The notes beneath the pieces were generated by a model. It made no database searches. It saw only the letters and a list, made by a program, of their open reading frames with translations, and was not told the origin of the DNA. From Desulfuromonas acetoxidans DSM 684 (GTDB lineage Bacteria > Desulfobacterota > Desulfuromonadia > Desulfuromonadales > Desulfuromonadaceae): a stretch of 64,000 bases of DNA. Position numbers and translations under genes: made by a program. The stretch's first letter is position 1, and the number at the start of each line of letters is the position of its first letter. Where the stretch lies: assembly GCF_000167355.1 (NCBI RefSeq), contig NZ_AAEW02000004.1, positions 124,001 through 188,000 of the forward strand, given 5' to 3'. This document shows, piece by piece, positions 58,418 to 64,000 of the stretch.

Positions 58418-59968
58418 ATGTCTGAAACCACCGAAAATGAAACCAGCCCGTTTGGCGAAGCTCCCGGCAATGTTGTTCACGAAGAACATACCGAGGAGTT
58501 CAGTCTGCAGATTATTGTTGCCGATGATGAAATGTCGGCCATGGTCAGTCTGATCCCTGTCGCCGATAAGGACGTTGAAATCCCCCCCCAACAGCTGCTC
58601 AGTGCGCTTTCCCAGGCCGGCATTGAAGACGGTGTCGACCTGCCTGCGGTCGAAGCGGTGTGCAACTTTGCCTCAAAAGGCAAAGAGCAACGCCACGTGA
58701 CCATCGCGTCTACAGAGCTTCCAGAGCCCGGTGCGGATGCCTGGCTGGAAGTGCTGATCCGAACCGGCGCAGACCAAAACATTCAACTCGAAGAAGATGA
58801 AGAGGGCAAACTCGACCTCTACACCCTCAATCTGTTTACCAGCGTCGAACCTGACCAGGAGATCGCCATTCTTCACCCGGCGGAATACGGCAAAGGCTCT
58901 TCGACAGTCACCGGAAAAGTCCTCGCCCCGGAACAGGGCAAAGAGCTCGACGTCAGACTCGGTGGCGGCGTGCGCGTCGAAGATGGCGGTCAACGGTTTA
59001 TCGCCGAATTGTGTGGTCGCGTTGATTACTCTGAAAATACCTTATCGGTCTCAGAAGATTACATCATCCACGGTGATGTCGATCTGGAAGTGGGTAACAT
59101 CAACTTCCCCGGCTATACCCGCGTGCGTGGCGATGTGCTCGACAGTTTCGATATTCGTTCCATCAAAGGGATTGAAATTGGCGGCGCGGTCGGCAACTCC
59201 TATCTGATTACTGATGGCGATGTCACCATCGGTAGTATGTCGGGACGCGATGAAGGGTTAATCCGCTGTGGTGGCACCCTGAAAGCTAACTACCTCAACG
59301 GCGTCACAGTGGAATGCATGGGCGATGTGGTGATCGCCAACGAGATCCGCAACTGCGTGATCAAATCAGCCGGAGCCATTCTCATCAAAAACGGCGTGAT
59401 CAGTGGTGGTGAATGTCTTGCACTCAATGGCGTTGAGGCCAAGGATATCGGCGCGACAGCCGGTGTCACCACCCGCCTAACCTCAGGGGTTTACTTCCCT
59501 GAAACCGACCGTCTGCAAATGCTCAAAGCCAAGCAGAAGAGTCTCACCATCCAAAACGAATTCATCAACCACTGCCTTGGCCCGCTGAAAAAAAAGGCGG
59601 CTAAAGATAAAAGCGATGATTCCGCCACCAAGAAACGCCTGGCCATCCTTCTTGAACGCCTTGAACTGGTAAAAAAAATGCAGGTGGAGGTGAAACAGGA
59701 ACTCAACGGTTTCGTCTTTGAAGACCATGACGGTAATGCCAAAATCAATGTACAGCGGCGCGTGCGGGAAAAAGTGGTAATCTCATTGGATACTGTCACC
59801 GAAGAGGTCCGTTTTGAACAATACGGCCCGTTGTCCATTGTCGCCGACACCCTCAACAGTCGCCTCTACTTCGGCGAATACAGTCCTCTCACGGTTCATG
59901 CCGATGACATGGTCATTGAAGAGCCGGAAGAGGAAGAGGCTCCGCAAAATGAAGAGGAAGAAGTCTGA
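58418..59968 (+). CDS. FapA-family (DUF342) protein
   Basis: A 516-aa cytoplasmic protein of the FapA/DUF342 family. An acidic N-terminal part (about 1-190) leads to a parallel beta-helix-type core (about 190-350, repeats such as GDVDLEVGNINFPG, IRSIKGIEIGGAVG and GCTVECMGDVVI-like text). A coiled coil (about 355-430) and a short beta tail with an acidic end (EEPEEEEAPQNEEEE) follow. Members are often polar or associated with flagellar or motility genes, but function is unsettled. GACAGG just before the ATG is a weak ribosome site. It lies 81 bases after the GGDEF-EAL gene, so the pair may be co-transcribed. Confidence 0.85.
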   Translation: MSETTENETSPFGEAPGNVVHEEHTEEFSLQIIVADDEMSAMVSLIPVADKDVEIPPQQLLSALSQAGIEDGVDLPAVEAVCNFASKGKEQRHVTIASTELPEPGADAWLEVLIRTGADQNIQLEEDEEGKLDLYTLNLFTSVEPDQEIAILHPAEYGKGSSTVTGKVLAPEQGKELDVRLGGGVRVEDGGQRFIAELCGRVDYSENTLSVSEDYIIHGDVDLEVGNINFPGYTRVRGDVLDSFDIRSIKGIEIGGAVGNSYLITDGDVTIGSMSGRDEGLIRCGGTLKANYLNGVTVECMGDVVIANEIRNCVIKSAGAILIKNGVISGGECLALNGVEAKDIGATAGVTTRLTSGVYFPETDRLQMLKAKQKSLTIQNEFINHCLGPLKKKAAKDKSDDSATKKRLAILLERLELVKKMQVEVKQELNGFVFEDHDGNAKINVQRRVREKVVISLDTVTEEVRFEQYGPLSIVADTLNSRLYFGEYSPLTVHADDMVIEEPEEEEAPQNEEEEV

Positions 59969-60080
59969 CAAAAGTGGTTGAGTCTTCACATATCCTCTAT
60001 TTCCAGTGGTCTAAATAACCCTACGAATTGCGTTAGCGAACCTCCTTTCATATAATTTGCTACCCACCTGACACGGACTG

Positions 60081-61015
60081 CCGGGACGAAACCCGGCGAC
60101 CTTGACCTTGATTTTGATCTTCAGTGGTTCGCAATTCTGGCACGCACGTGACGTGGGCTTCCGCGCCCACACCTCGGGCCACATTTTGCGTCGACAAAAG
60201 GGGCGCAAAATCGACTCCCGACCATTGCACCCTACGGGTTCCCTCTCTCCATTCTCTTACACCGCGATGTCGGCAAAACTCGCTAACGCTCAAACAAGTT
60301 GCCGACAACCATCGCGCTGACGTTCATTGCGTTCGGTGCTGCTGAACGGGAGAGCTTGGCTGCTAAATAACACACTTCTGTAGGGTGGGCACTGCCCACC
60401 CGTTTATTCGGTGCCACGGAAGAGATAGAGCGTTGCGTTAAACTGTTATCAACGTTTTACGCCAGAGATGATGAGTTGCACGATTCGTCGACCTAAAGGG
60501 CGGCGGGCCGAATCCGTTAAGCATAACGGAAACAGACACAGTGTAGGTGAATCCAGGTTCAGGAGGTGTTCAAGCTGGTTTTTGCATACTTTTGAGCGGC
60601 CAGTCAAAAGGATGTCGGCTGCCGGGACGAGACCCGGCGACCTTGACTTTGATCTTGATCTTCAGTGGTTCGCAATTCGGAACAAATCGCGCTGGCGAAC
60701 TTCATCCGTTCACAATGGTGGTACGCACATGACGCGGGCTTCCGCGCCCGCACGTCGGGCCCCTTTTGCGTCGACAAAAGAGGCGTAAAATCGACTCCCG
60801 TCATTGCACCCTGCGGGTTCCCTCTCTCCATTCTCTTACATCGCGATGTCGGCAAAATTCGCTAGCGCTCAAACAGGTTGCCGACGACCATCGCGCTGAC
60901 GTTCATTGCGTTCGGTGCTGCTGAACGGGAGAGCTTGGCTGCTAAATATCACTCTGAAGAAGGGTGGGCACTGCCCACCCGTTTATTCGGTGCCACGGAA
61001 GAAATAGAGGACGGC
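60081..61015. repeat. Right block of degenerate long intergenic repeats
   Basis: One full unit (60338-60914, 577 bp) plus parts of two others, in the same orientation as the left block. Landmarks: CCGGGACGAAACCCGG at 60081-60096 and its near copy at 60622-60637; GGGTGGGC/GCCCACCC stems at 60383-60401 and 60962-60980; a GTCGACAAAAG segment near 60190 and 60770. Open frames here are repeat by-products. The stretch 59969-60080 shows nothing else. Confidence 0.8.
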
Positions 61016-61028
61016 TTAACCAATGAAC

Positions 61029-61052
61029 TACCCCGCCGCAAGCAGCGGGGTA
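61029..61052. terminator. Hairpin downstream of proC, dispersed repeat type
   Basis: TACCCCGC pairs with GCGGGGTA around CGCAAGCA. It lies 71 bases beyond the proC stop (leftward gene). In one frame this sequence encodes LPRRKQRGI, a phrase I recall from many spurious proteins, so it is probably a widespread repeat rather than a dedicated terminator. Confidence 0.45.
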
Positions 61053-61122
61053 TCAACAGCCTGCAATCTTTGCTCAATCACGCAGTGAACTGCGGGGTAT
61101 TGAGCCCAAATTGCGAATAAAC

Positions 61123-61929
61123 CTAATCCGCTAACTCCCGCGACCGCTGGCTGGCCCGCGTAACAGCACCCATCAATGTAGCGCGCAATTTCCCCTTCTC
61201 CAGCGTATCCACAGCAGCAATGGTTGTCCCGCCCGGACTGCACACCCGATCACGCAGTACCGCCGGATGTTCGCCGGTATCCAGCACCATTTGCGCAGCC
61301 CCGGCAACGGTCTTGGCGGCCAGATTCAAAGCCACATCGCGTGGCAGACCTTCCAAGACACCGCCATCAGCCAACGCTTCGATAATGGTGTACACATAGG
61401 CCGGCCCGGAACCGGACAACCCGGTAACAGCATCAAGGAGTTTTTCAGCCACCACCTCAACAACACCGACCGAGGCAAACAACTGCCGAGCCAGTTCAAC
61501 ATCATCATTCTGAACATAACGGCCACCACTAAGCGCCGCCGCACCGGTACCGATCAGCGCCGGAGTATTGGGCATAACCCGAACAATCCGTGGTGAACCA
61601 CCCAGAATCGCCTCAATGCGTGACGTTTTAACCCCAGCCAGAATTGAGATCATGCAATGATCATCGCTGAATGCCTCACTGAGCGGCATCAGAGCAGCAT
61701 CCAGAGCCTGTGGTTTGACTGCCAGCAGAATGACTTTTTTCTCAGCCACAACCTGACTGCTGTCAGCTGTGGTTTCAATGCCATACGTCTGTTCAAGAAA
61801 CTGGCGGCGTTCCGGCATCAGCTCGGCAACAAGAATCGCTTTGCTGTCCATACCAGATGCAATCAATCCCTTGATCAACGCTTCAGCCATATTTCCACCA
61901 CCAATAAACCCCAGTGCTATCAAACCCAT
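61123..61929 (-). CDS. proC: Pyrroline-5-carboxylate reductase
   Basis: A 268-aa enzyme for the last step of proline synthesis, reducing pyrroline-5-carboxylate with NAD(P)H. The Rossmann motif GFIGGGNMAEALIKG is at 6-20. The C-terminal dimer domain carries the family signature SGSGPAYVYTIIEALADGGV (about 162-181) and SPGGTTIAAV. The ATG at 61929 has AAAGGA upstream; the 35-codon in-frame extension has none. It is divergent from the polyamine cluster. Confidence 0.93.
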   Translation of the reverse strand: MGLIALGFIGGGNMAEALIKGLIASGMDSKAILVAELMPERRQFLEQTYGIETTADSSQVVAEKKVILLAVKPQALDAALMPLSEAFSDDHCMISILAGVKTSRIEAILGGSPRIVRVMPNTPALIGTGAAALSGGRYVQNDDVELARQLFASVGVVEVVAEKLLDAVTGLSGSGPAYVYTIIEALADGGVLEGLPRDVALNLAAKTVAGAAQMVLDTGEHPAVLRDRVCSPGGTTIAAVDTLEKGKLRATLMGAVTRASQRSRELAD

Positions 61930-62167
61930 CGAGTCATCCTTTCCGTTGCTATAACCAAAAACCGGTTTACTCCTATGACAGAGCTTACCCATTTCATTGT
62001 TGTTGACGGCCTGAAAAAATGCCAAACAAACCAAAGCGTGGCAAGCACCTCATAGAGGTGTCCTAAGTAGATAAAAGGTTGTGATTTGCGCTATTTTACG
62101 GCATAAGTTGACATGAAGACAGTGTAGATTTTACCTGACGGCATTTTGCGGTAAAAAAGGAGAACCG

Positions 62168-62641
62168 ATGGCAAATAACACTGTGCCACAACATTACTTC
62201 ACCTGTGCCTGCGGGCAAGGCGAATCGCCTGTTTCGGCCCATTATCTGGCATTGGCCGAAGCCGGATTAGCCGATCGCATTCTTCTGGAAGCCAGAGGGT
62301 TTCTTCCGCCCGGCAGCGCGCTGCAGACACCGGAAAAGTGCACAACAAAGGCAGAACAACGCCTGTTCATGGCCCGGATCGAATCTGCCACTGTCGGGGA
62401 AGTGATCAGTGCGGCCATCGCTGTTGCCTACCCGGAAAATCCGCACCATGGTGCACCGGTGATTCCCGTTGCGTCCACCGGCCATAAAGAAGATATAGAA
62501 GCTATGGCACGCAGTCAGGCGCAGAGCGCCGTGGAGCAGCGTGGCGATACTGTAAAAGAAATTCAATCGTTGGCGGTACAGGTGAAAGTCTCTCAGCCTT
62601 CCTGTGCCCTGGCCTGCGTCGTTTTGACACCCTCTATTTAA
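62168..62641 (+). CDS. Pyruvoyl-dependent arginine decarboxylase homologue, degenerate
   Basis: A 157-aa protein with the length and pattern of PvlArgDC: N-terminal YFTCACGQGESPVSAHYLALAEAGL, the loop FLPPGS (45-50), the strand-helix MARIESATVGEVISAAIAVAYP (69-90), the helix HKEDIEAMARSQAQSAVEQRG, and the last strand. However, the self-cleavage Ser-Ser that should precede I/F-x-P-P is replaced by R43-G44, and the Glu expected after the Gly of ..HHGA.. is absent. It should therefore be unable to form the pyruvoyl group. It is 16 bases before speE and near speA (PLP type), so it may be a regulatory or retired subunit. AAAGGAGA supports the start. Confidence 0.6.
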   Translation: MANNTVPQHYFTCACGQGESPVSAHYLALAEAGLADRILLEARGFLPPGSALQTPEKCTTKAEQRLFMARIESATVGEVISAAIAVAYPENPHHGAPVIPVASTGHKEDIEAMARSQAQSAVEQRGDTVKEIQSLAVQVKVSQPSCALACVVLTPSI

Positions 62642-62657
62642 GGAACAGGAAGCCATT

Positions 62658-63500
62658 ATGGAGATGTGGTACACCGAGAAACACTCGGAAAATGTCGGGA
62701 TTACCATGAAAGTGACGGAGACATTGTTCTCCGGCAAGAGTGAATTTCAGCAACTGGACATTGTCCAGACACTTGAATACGGCAAAATGATGCTGCTTGA
62801 TGGTCTGGTCATGGTTACCGAGCGTGATGAGTTCGTTTACCACGACATGATTGCCCACCCGGCGCTGTTCACCCACCCCGCCCCGAAAAACGTACTGGTA
62901 ATCGGCGGCGGTGACGGCGGCAGCATCCGCGAGATCATGAAGCACCCCGGTGTTGAGCAAGCGACCCTGTGCGAAATTGACGGTCTGGTGATTGAGAAGT
63001 CCATCGAACTGCTGCCCTCCATGGCCTGTGAAATCGACGGCAGCAACTCACGCGTCAAACTGCATGTCGATGACGGCCTGGCCTATATTCGTGACCACCA
63101 GAACGAATTCGACGTCATCCTTGTCGACTCCACCGATCCCATCGGTCCGGCCGTCGGCCTGTTCGAAGAGGATTTTTACCGTCTGGTTCACGGTGCTCTG
63201 AAAGAGGACGGCATCATGGTCGCCCAGAGCGAATCGCCGTTTTACCATGCCGACATCCAGAAGGCCATGTACGGCAACCTGCGCAACGTGTTCCCGATTG
63301 TCGAGATGTATCAGGCGTTCATCCCCACCTACCCCAGCGGTCTGTGGAGTTTCGCCTTTGCCAGCAAGAAATATCATCCGGTCAATGATTTCGACCAGCA
63401 GCGCGCTGCCAACCGCGGCTTTCATACCCGCTACTACAACGAGCAACTGCACCTCGGCGCGTTCATGCTGCCGACGTTTGCCCGCGAAAACATTGCTTGA
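62658..63500 (+). CDS. speE: Spermidine synthase (putrescine aminopropyltransferase)
   Basis: A 280-aa enzyme that transfers aminopropyl from decarboxylated SAM to putrescine. Family signs: WYTEKHSENVGI opening, the substrate-binding Asp/Tyr region VTERDEFVYHDM, the SAM-site VIGGGDGGSIREI (about 76-88), and the catalytic VDSTDPIGPA (about 155-164). All key residues look present. It has AGGAACAGGA before the ATG. It lies between the degenerate decarboxylase and speA, which together define a polyamine cluster. No speD or speB is seen in the window. Confidence 0.93.
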   Translation: MEMWYTEKHSENVGITMKVTETLFSGKSEFQQLDIVQTLEYGKMMLLDGLVMVTERDEFVYHDMIAHPALFTHPAPKNVLVIGGGDGGSIREIMKHPGVEQATLCEIDGLVIEKSIELLPSMACEIDGSNSRVKLHVDDGLAYIRDHQNEFDVILVDSTDPIGPAVGLFEEDFYRLVHGALKEDGIMVAQSESPFYHADIQKAMYGNLRNVFPIVEMYQAFIPTYPSGLWSFAFASKKYHPVNDFDQQRAANRGFHTRYYNEQLHLGAFMLPTFARENIA

Positions 63501-63504
63501 TGAG

Positions 63505-63630
63505 GTTCTTGCAAAAAGCCATCCGTGCTTTTTGCCAACAAGCTTTTGAAAAATGTCATTTTCAAAAGCGTACAAAATCGCCGATTTGTAAACGAACCCG
63601 ACGATTTTGGTCGCCCATCCATGGGCTCCA
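63505..63630 (+). repeat. Four-hairpin element, copy 5, in speE-speA gap
   Basis: Stem 1: GCAAAAAGC (63511-63519) with 63527-63535, loop CATCCGT. Stem 2: perfect 11-bp GCTTTTGAAAA (63542-63552) with 63559-63569. Stem 3: AAAATCG (63574-63580) with CGATTTT (63602-63608). Stem 4: CGCCCATCCATGGGCTC. It fills most of the 166-base gap and lacks the terminal inverted repeats seen in other copies. Stem 1 alone could work as a speE terminator. Confidence 0.7.
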
Positions 63631-63666
63631 ATACATACCAATAACCACTGACGGGAGTCTGGTGAG

Positions 63667-64000
63667 ATGACGCAGGACCTGAGCAACTGGACCATTGACG
63701 ATTCGGCGCAACTGTACGGCATACCCGACTGGGGACGCGGTTTCTTCGGCGTCAACAGCGCCGGAGAGATGACGGTGGAGATCGACGGGACTAAGGGTCC
63801 GGTTCAGGTCTCGCTGATGGAGATCGTCGCCGGCCTGGAACAGCGCGGCTACGACATGCCGATTGTGCTGCGCATCGAAAACCTGCTGCAGTCACGCATT
63901 GTCTATCTCAACGAGACTTTTCGCGGCGCCATTGCCGCCGCCGGTTATCAGGGCCGTTACCGCGGTGTGTTTCCGGTCAAGGTCAATCAGCAGTGCCAGA
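63667..64000 (+). CDS. speA: Biosynthetic arginine decarboxylase (5' part)
   Basis: The first 111 codons of a PLP-dependent arginine decarboxylase; the gene continues past the window end. The N-terminus (NWTIDDSAQLYGIPDWGRGFFGVN) and the region VFPVKVNQQ, where the lysine binds PLP, match SpeA. It makes agmatine from arginine, the first step to putrescine and spermidine, which fits speE upstream. The ATG at 63667 is preceded by GGGAG at a somewhat long distance. The four-hairpin element lies directly upstream. Confidence 0.9.
   Translation, partial: MTQDLSNWTIDDSAQLYGIPDWGRGFFGVNSAGEMTVEIDGTKGPVQVSLMEIVAGLEQRGYDMPIVLRIENLLQSRIVYLNETFRGAIAAAGYQGRYRGVFPVKVNQQCQ

Follow-up and report, generated by a model that had tools for sequence, protein, structure and literature searches.

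The window is a stretch of 64,000 nucleotides from Desulfuromonas acetoxidans DSM 684. Close to its end a short gene, which we call pvl, lies between proC and the polyamine genes speE and speA. The features of this region, in window coordinates, are:

61123..62034, minus strand: proC, pyrroline-5-carboxylate reductase, divergent from pvl (TIGR00112 299.6 bits, cut-off 196.75)
62168..62641, plus strand: pvl, ATG start, 157 aa, protein of PvlArgDC fold that is predicted not to cleave itself
62294..62299, plus strand: codons of R43-G44, aligned to Ser52-Ser53, between which the active enzyme is cut
62465..62467, plus strand: codon of Pro100, aligned to Glu109
62658..63500, plus strand: speE, spermidine synthase / polyamine aminopropyltransferase, 280 aa, 16 nt after pvl (TIGR00417 348 bits, cut-off 249.55)
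63667..64000, plus strand: start of speA, PLP-type biosynthetic arginine decarboxylase, 632 aa, extending beyond the window end

The proC coordinates start from a TTG, and the homologous part begins near 61929. The full-length SpeA of this genome scores 664.4 bits against TIGR01273 (cut-off 624.1). The gene order first read from this DNA, pvl followed by speE and then a normal PLP-type speA, is correct. There is no Rfam match at gathering score in the region 59900-64000. Upstream of proC (60078-61009) a unit of several hundred bp is present in two copies about 540-580 bp apart. The copies match over 208 nt at 94%, 60 nt at 95%, 71 nt at 80% and 44 nt at 89%.

Family and fold

The pvl protein matches PF01862, the Pfam family of pyruvoyl-dependent arginine decarboxylases (PvlArgDC), at 2.8e-13 and 50.5 bits (cut-off 22.7) over profile positions 2-160 of 161. 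The original prediction hung on such a match. A phmmer search also finds the PvlArgDC of Methanocaldococcus jannaschii (1.9e-10). Against TIGR00286, the NCBIfam equivalog, it scores 57.2 bits, which is below the cut-off of 106.95. The protein therefore belongs to the PF01862 superfamily by profile score, and by fold as described below, but not at the level of the enzyme.

An AlphaFold model built on a 48-sequence alignment has a mean pLDDT of 92.8 and a pTM of 0.88. Its best PDB match is chain A of 1N2M, the uncleaved S53A proenzyme of M. jannaschii, with a TM of 0.93. The alignment itself included PvlArgDC sequences, which means that the model does not test family membership independently. 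A model from the five genus sequences alone (pLDDT 55.8) was set aside. The length and fold pattern of PvlArgDC are kept, as had been claimed. Since the top match is the S53A proenzyme, the uncleaved state is a known stable state of this fold. We predict that the pvl protein adopts the fold of the uncut proenzyme and remains a single chain.

Lost catalytic residues

Residue numbers were set by an intact relative from the class (L026) that aligns to 1N2M without gaps, with an offset of +9. This numbering bears out the replacement of the autocleavage Ser-Ser by R43-G44. The Asn47 position is Ile38 and the Asp35 position is Tyr26. Asp35 is presumably a residue that matters for substrate binding. 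A conserved Glu was also said to be missing after the His/Gly loop, and this is half right. The Glu109 position is indeed Pro100, but it lies just before GHKED rather than after it, and the Glu of GHKED (E108) is kept. Neither the cleavage-site Ser nor the Glu109 and Asn47 equivalents of the TIGR00286 enzyme are present.

In the available text of PMC2720952, Chlamydia pneumoniae AaxB self-cleaves at Ser53 and Glu109 has a role in the cleavage. PDB entry titles record solved structures of the S53A, N47A and E109Q mutants. Judged by its residues, the window protein cannot form the pyruvoyl cofactor by the known route. We infer that in the cell it is not cleaved and does not decarboxylate arginine.

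The polyamine pathway of the genome

It is worth considering whether pvl stands in for something the genome lacks. An AdoMet_dc match over the cut-off is found on contig C28, which rules out pvl as a replacement for an absent AdoMet decarboxylase. The agmatinase family (PF00491) has no match in the genome. The agmatine deiminase family (PF04371) does have one, so a stand-in for an absent agmatine route is not needed. From gene content, the pathway appears to have its main steps without the pvl protein: SpeA, a PF04371 family member, an AdoMet decarboxylase family match and SpeE. A prozyme works alongside an active homologue in its own cell. Here pvl is the sole PF01862 match in its own genome (assembly 96.46% complete), which rules it out as a prozyme for an intact PvlArgDC.

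Copies within the genus

A protein search of 58 genomes, the window's own included, gave 11 with a match. The gene is carried by half of the ten genus genomes (G000, G001, G002, G007 and G008), and the other four copies are 54-95% identical to the window protein. None of the five has serines at the cleavage site. The pairs are RG, RG, QG, TG and EG, so that the second residue is always G and the first varies. All five have Ile at the Asn47 position and Pro at the Glu109 position, and all five reading frames are unbroken. Orthologues with the serine pair would have pointed to a recent pseudogene, and no such orthologue was found in the genus. Loss shared by five genomes with intact frames rules out a recent single-strain pseudogene.

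Could these proteins be enzymes with another chemistry, or make a pyruvoyl group from another residue? In the G001 and G007 copies (L036, L037) a Gly-Ser pair sits one residue downstream of the former cleavage site. Gly-Ser is a cleavage site in some pyruvoyl enzymes. C13, C15, C146 and H9 are invariant across the five copies, and C15 is unique to them among the 13 rows of alignment A1; the three invariant cysteines would fit another chemistry. However, the pair is Gly-Phe in the window protein and in G008 and G002, so no Ser or Cys is common to the site, and the Pro and Ile described above are found in all five. We consider this very improbable.

Four congeners (G003, G004, G006 and G009) have proC adjoining speE with no gene between and no convincing pvl remnant. 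This implies that the gene is dispensable. SpeA is above the cut-off in G003 and G004 and is cut by a contig end in G006. In G009 there is no SpeA match, and its speE contig ends there. speE and speA lie side by side without pvl in G003 and G006. G005 (80% complete, no good speE match) was left out of this junction comparison.

The five gene-bearing genomes cluster in the proC tree (support 89/90) and in the speE tree (87/89). It should be noted that speE and speA of G001 (L017) and G002 (L015) are 99-100% identical in amino acids (speA up to the contig end only), while the adjacent pvl (55%) and proC (79%) are far diverged. This suggests that speE-speA of G001 was recombined or transferred and that the breakpoint lies close to where pvl ends.

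The class and relatives outside it

PF01862 matches occur in 17 of the 277 class genomes. The cleavage site is SS in G041, G043, G044, G057, G065 and G077 and GS in G039. Ser53 is lost in the other ten, namely the five genus copies, G026 (GF), G052 (DA), G078 (NA), G111 (CN) and G113 (CH). The Asn and Glu positions are kept in G026, G052, G111 and G113, and G078 has Asn and Asp. This pattern suggests that loss begins with the serine and reaches the other residues later. proC adjoins the copy in 16 of the 17; that of G041 is of another PvlArgDC type and lies outside the cluster.

Several of these copies deserve a comment. The copies of G113 and G111 (L034, L092, L093), with Cys-His or Cys-Asn at the site and the Asn47 and Glu109 positions kept, are a separate fast-evolving dead branch. 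The G052 copy (L030/L091) combines Asp-Ala at the site with an in-frame TAA, and the SpeA match of the same assembly has an in-frame TAG. These stops could be either decay or assembly error. In G043 a gene lies between pvl and speA, with a clustered homologue in G077. It was rejected as a pathway gene, since its product is an MscS-type channel.

An alignment-based scan with one genome per species found 52 loci, compared to none in an earlier scan with a single sequence. Eight are class members and 44 come from genomes outside the 277. Two conserved motifs were required, so the scan samples relatives near this type rather than all PvlArgDCs, and we make no claim about Archaea. Every one of the 44 non-class copies has SS together with the Asn and Glu. 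speE is downstream in 35 of these loci and speA in none, within flanks of up to 4 kb, some of them cut by contig ends. At one locus (L069) the next gene is an agmatinase.

Serine loss and SpeA

SpeA is found at E <= 1e-40 in 248 of the 277 class genomes. It is present in 15 of the 17 that have PF01862, above the cut-off in 12 and as pieces at contig ends in three (G001, G057 and G111). The two without it, G044 (98% complete) and G065 (94% complete), keep SS. All ten genomes that lost the serine carry PLP-type SpeA (eight above the cut-off, G001 and G111 partial at contig ends), though in G052 it is not linked to pvl. In the 44 non-class genomes, whose completeness is not given, the best TIGR01273 match is 77 bits against the cut-off of 624.1.

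We argue from this co-occurrence that SpeA probably took over and released PvlArgDC, since every serine-lost genome has SpeA and the SpeA-less genomes keep SS. SpeA would permit the loss rather than force it, because five SpeA-bearing class genomes retain Ser53 (G041, G043, G057 and G077 as SS, G039 as GS). The original prediction did not include this context, in which the loss recurs in the class and PLP-type SpeA accompanies each serine-lost copy found.

The 16 class copies in the tree form one clade (support 100/96), and the label needs a minimum of 2 changes on the tree. A single origin of the serine loss is not rejected (AU p 0.096). If regain is excluded, further losses are suggested by the topology and by the presence of SS copies within the genera of G078 and G052. 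An independent-pairs test of serine loss against SpeA has only 1-2 pairs, and SpeA does not differ within them. The link is strong in counts; the tree gives no independent support for it, and shared ancestry is thus uncorrected. The G041 copy is in no tree, G043 is absent from the first tree and nine near-duplicates were omitted from the 51-row tree. Alignment A3 omits near-duplicates and L060, the G052 copy with the stop.

Selection on the dead copies

The maximum likelihood omega of the five genus copies is 0.150 (0.145 without G001). Pairwise values among G000, G008 and G002, where dS is unsaturated, are 0.11-0.15. When omega is constrained to 1 (and kappa to 2) the log likelihood falls by 77 units, a 2x lnL difference of 154, so neutrality is rejected. 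Intact copies give 0.070 (five class copies) and 0.025, 0.040 and 0.108 (three non-class sets). The neighbours give 0.024 for speE, 0.025 for speA and 0.047 for proC. Invariant sites are dense in the strands, at 79-89 (10/11), 96-104 (7/9) and 145-154 (7/10), and few of them fall in what was the cleavage loop, 42-62 (4/21). Given this omega and the invariant strands, the protein is maintained mainly as a fold, and less tightly than the intact copies. The original prediction of a dead PvlArgDC that persists within a polyamine operon is supported by this and by all five gene-bearing genomes.

One can imagine that the reading frame is kept solely for translational coupling to speE, which begins 16 nt downstream, and not for the protein. 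Amino acids would not be preserved under such coupling, yet omega is 0.15. Furthermore, speE adjoins proC in the four congeners without pvl, a point that comes from genes alone and not expression. We give coupling hardly any credence.

Another scenario is slow decay, in which pvl is the relic of a displaced enzyme that no longer has a function and whose frame is intact only for now. It evolves faster than speE, with a dN ratio of 2.2-14.7 in six genus pairs without G001, compared to 0.8-1.9 in the three SS pairs that have both genes. Since speE-speA of G001 appears to be recombinant, pairs that include this genome (ratios 31.6-129) are not counted here. The four congeners without the gene, the TAA in the G052 copy and the Chlamydia precedent of parallel PvlArgDC inactivation, as described in the available text of PMC2720952, all fit decay. 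However, the shared G44, Ile38 and Pro100 suggest loss on the genus stem, and if there was one such loss the branches with omega 0.15 postdate it. The frame is also kept in all five genomes, and only 1.9% of 5000 neutral simulation runs stay stop-free over a lineage length of 0.37, which is half of the G000-G002 synonymous distance. Because selection is looser than on intact copies and neighbours, slow decay deserves a place among the explanations, but we consider it unlikely.

What the protein may do

We argue that pvl encodes a pseudoenzyme descended from PvlArgDC. It would retain a role other than catalysis, most likely the binding of a ligand or of an operon partner. We put the probability of this at about 0.72. 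The missing residues, the predicted fold, the co-occurrence and omega are what we observe; the replacement by SpeA and the binding role are inferred from them.

The scenario would run as follows. The ancestral arrangement is taken to be an intact PvlArgDC followed by speE, as in most of the sampled relatives from other lineages. PLP-dependent SpeA would then have become the arginine decarboxylase in the class, in many genomes directly downstream of speE, and pyruvoyl catalysis would no longer have been needed. The serine pair would have been lost next, probably several times although one loss is possible, and in the genus the Asn and Glu positions would have changed too. Purifying selection would hold the strand core while the old cleavage loop drifts. 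With its fold kept under purifying selection, the protein is most likely a non-catalytic binding protein encoded with speE-speA. The candidate partner would be a polyamine-pathway ligand or an operon partner, bound by the uncut chain.

A narrower form of this explanation is a prozyme-like subunit that tunes decarboxylation by SpeA or aminopropyl transfer by SpeE. Such a subunit might sense arginine, agmatine or spermidine in what was the subunit-interface pocket. The gene lies directly upstream of speE and speA and is kept with them in all five gene-bearing genomes. In trypanosomes a dead paralogue of a pyruvoyl enzyme acts in this way, according to the available text of PMC5201418. However, the trypanosome partner is homologous and active, and here no other PF01862 copy was found in the genome. 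SpeA depends on PLP and folds differently; the available text of PMC8503589 treats PLP and pyruvoyl arginine decarboxylases as separate folds. The four congeners with proC and speE, two of them with speE and speA side by side, speak against an obligatory role. Since there are congeners that have speE-speA without the gene, tuning of SpeA or SpeE would be an optional refinement. We regard a tuning subunit as possible but doubtful. More specific still, a displaced and uncleaved PvlArgDC-fold protein that is now an arginine, agmatine or polyamine sensor regulating its successor SpeA (or SpeE) must be called speculative.

Relation to known systems

The closest known protein is the M. jannaschii PvlArgDC (PF01862, TIGR00286; 1MT1/1N13, S53A 1N2M), which shares the family profile, the length and the predicted fold (TM 0.93). 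The pairing of pvl with speE is that of the 35 intact relatives from other lineages. The window protein differs in having no Ser-Ser, Asn47 or Glu109, in falling below the TIGR00286 cut-off and in having a PLP-type SpeA adjacent.

Three other systems invite comparison, each as described in the available text of its source. PvlArgDC was independently inactivated in Chlamydia trachomatis AaxB too, including a copy that stays an uncleaved proenzyme, and AaxB inactivation occurred in parallel (PMC2720952). Substitution ratios gave no relaxed selection after that recent inactivation. However, the AaxB losses are recent and at the level of strains, whereas the loss in pvl is common to several species, purifying selection continues and the genomes have SpeA. 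The trypanosomatid AdoMetDC prozyme (PMC5201418) is likewise a catalytically dead relative of a pyruvoyl enzyme kept in polyamine synthesis. The prozyme activates an active paralogue, whereas no active PvlArgDC was found in the window genome. The SpeD-SpeDC fusion of Victivallis vadensis (PMC10407285) has a degraded SpeDC domain that lost critical residues and does not self-cleave, yet is kept. That domain is of the SpeD family and within a fusion, whereas pvl is a free-standing PF01862 protein.

Among the titles and abstract openings listed in searches of the open PMC library, none reports a serine-less PvlArgDC in the class. Compared to the known parallels, what differs is a free-standing dead PF01862 protein, found across species, in genomes with an unrelated PLP enzyme able to carry out the reaction.

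Implications

Annotation by PF01862 alone will label dead proteins as arginine decarboxylases in polyamine pathways. The locus is a natural case of an enzyme that was apparently replaced by an unrelated enzyme of the same reaction, with the old one surviving as a dead protein. The class holds intact, partly lost and fully lost copies, which makes the fate of a displaced enzyme directly testable.
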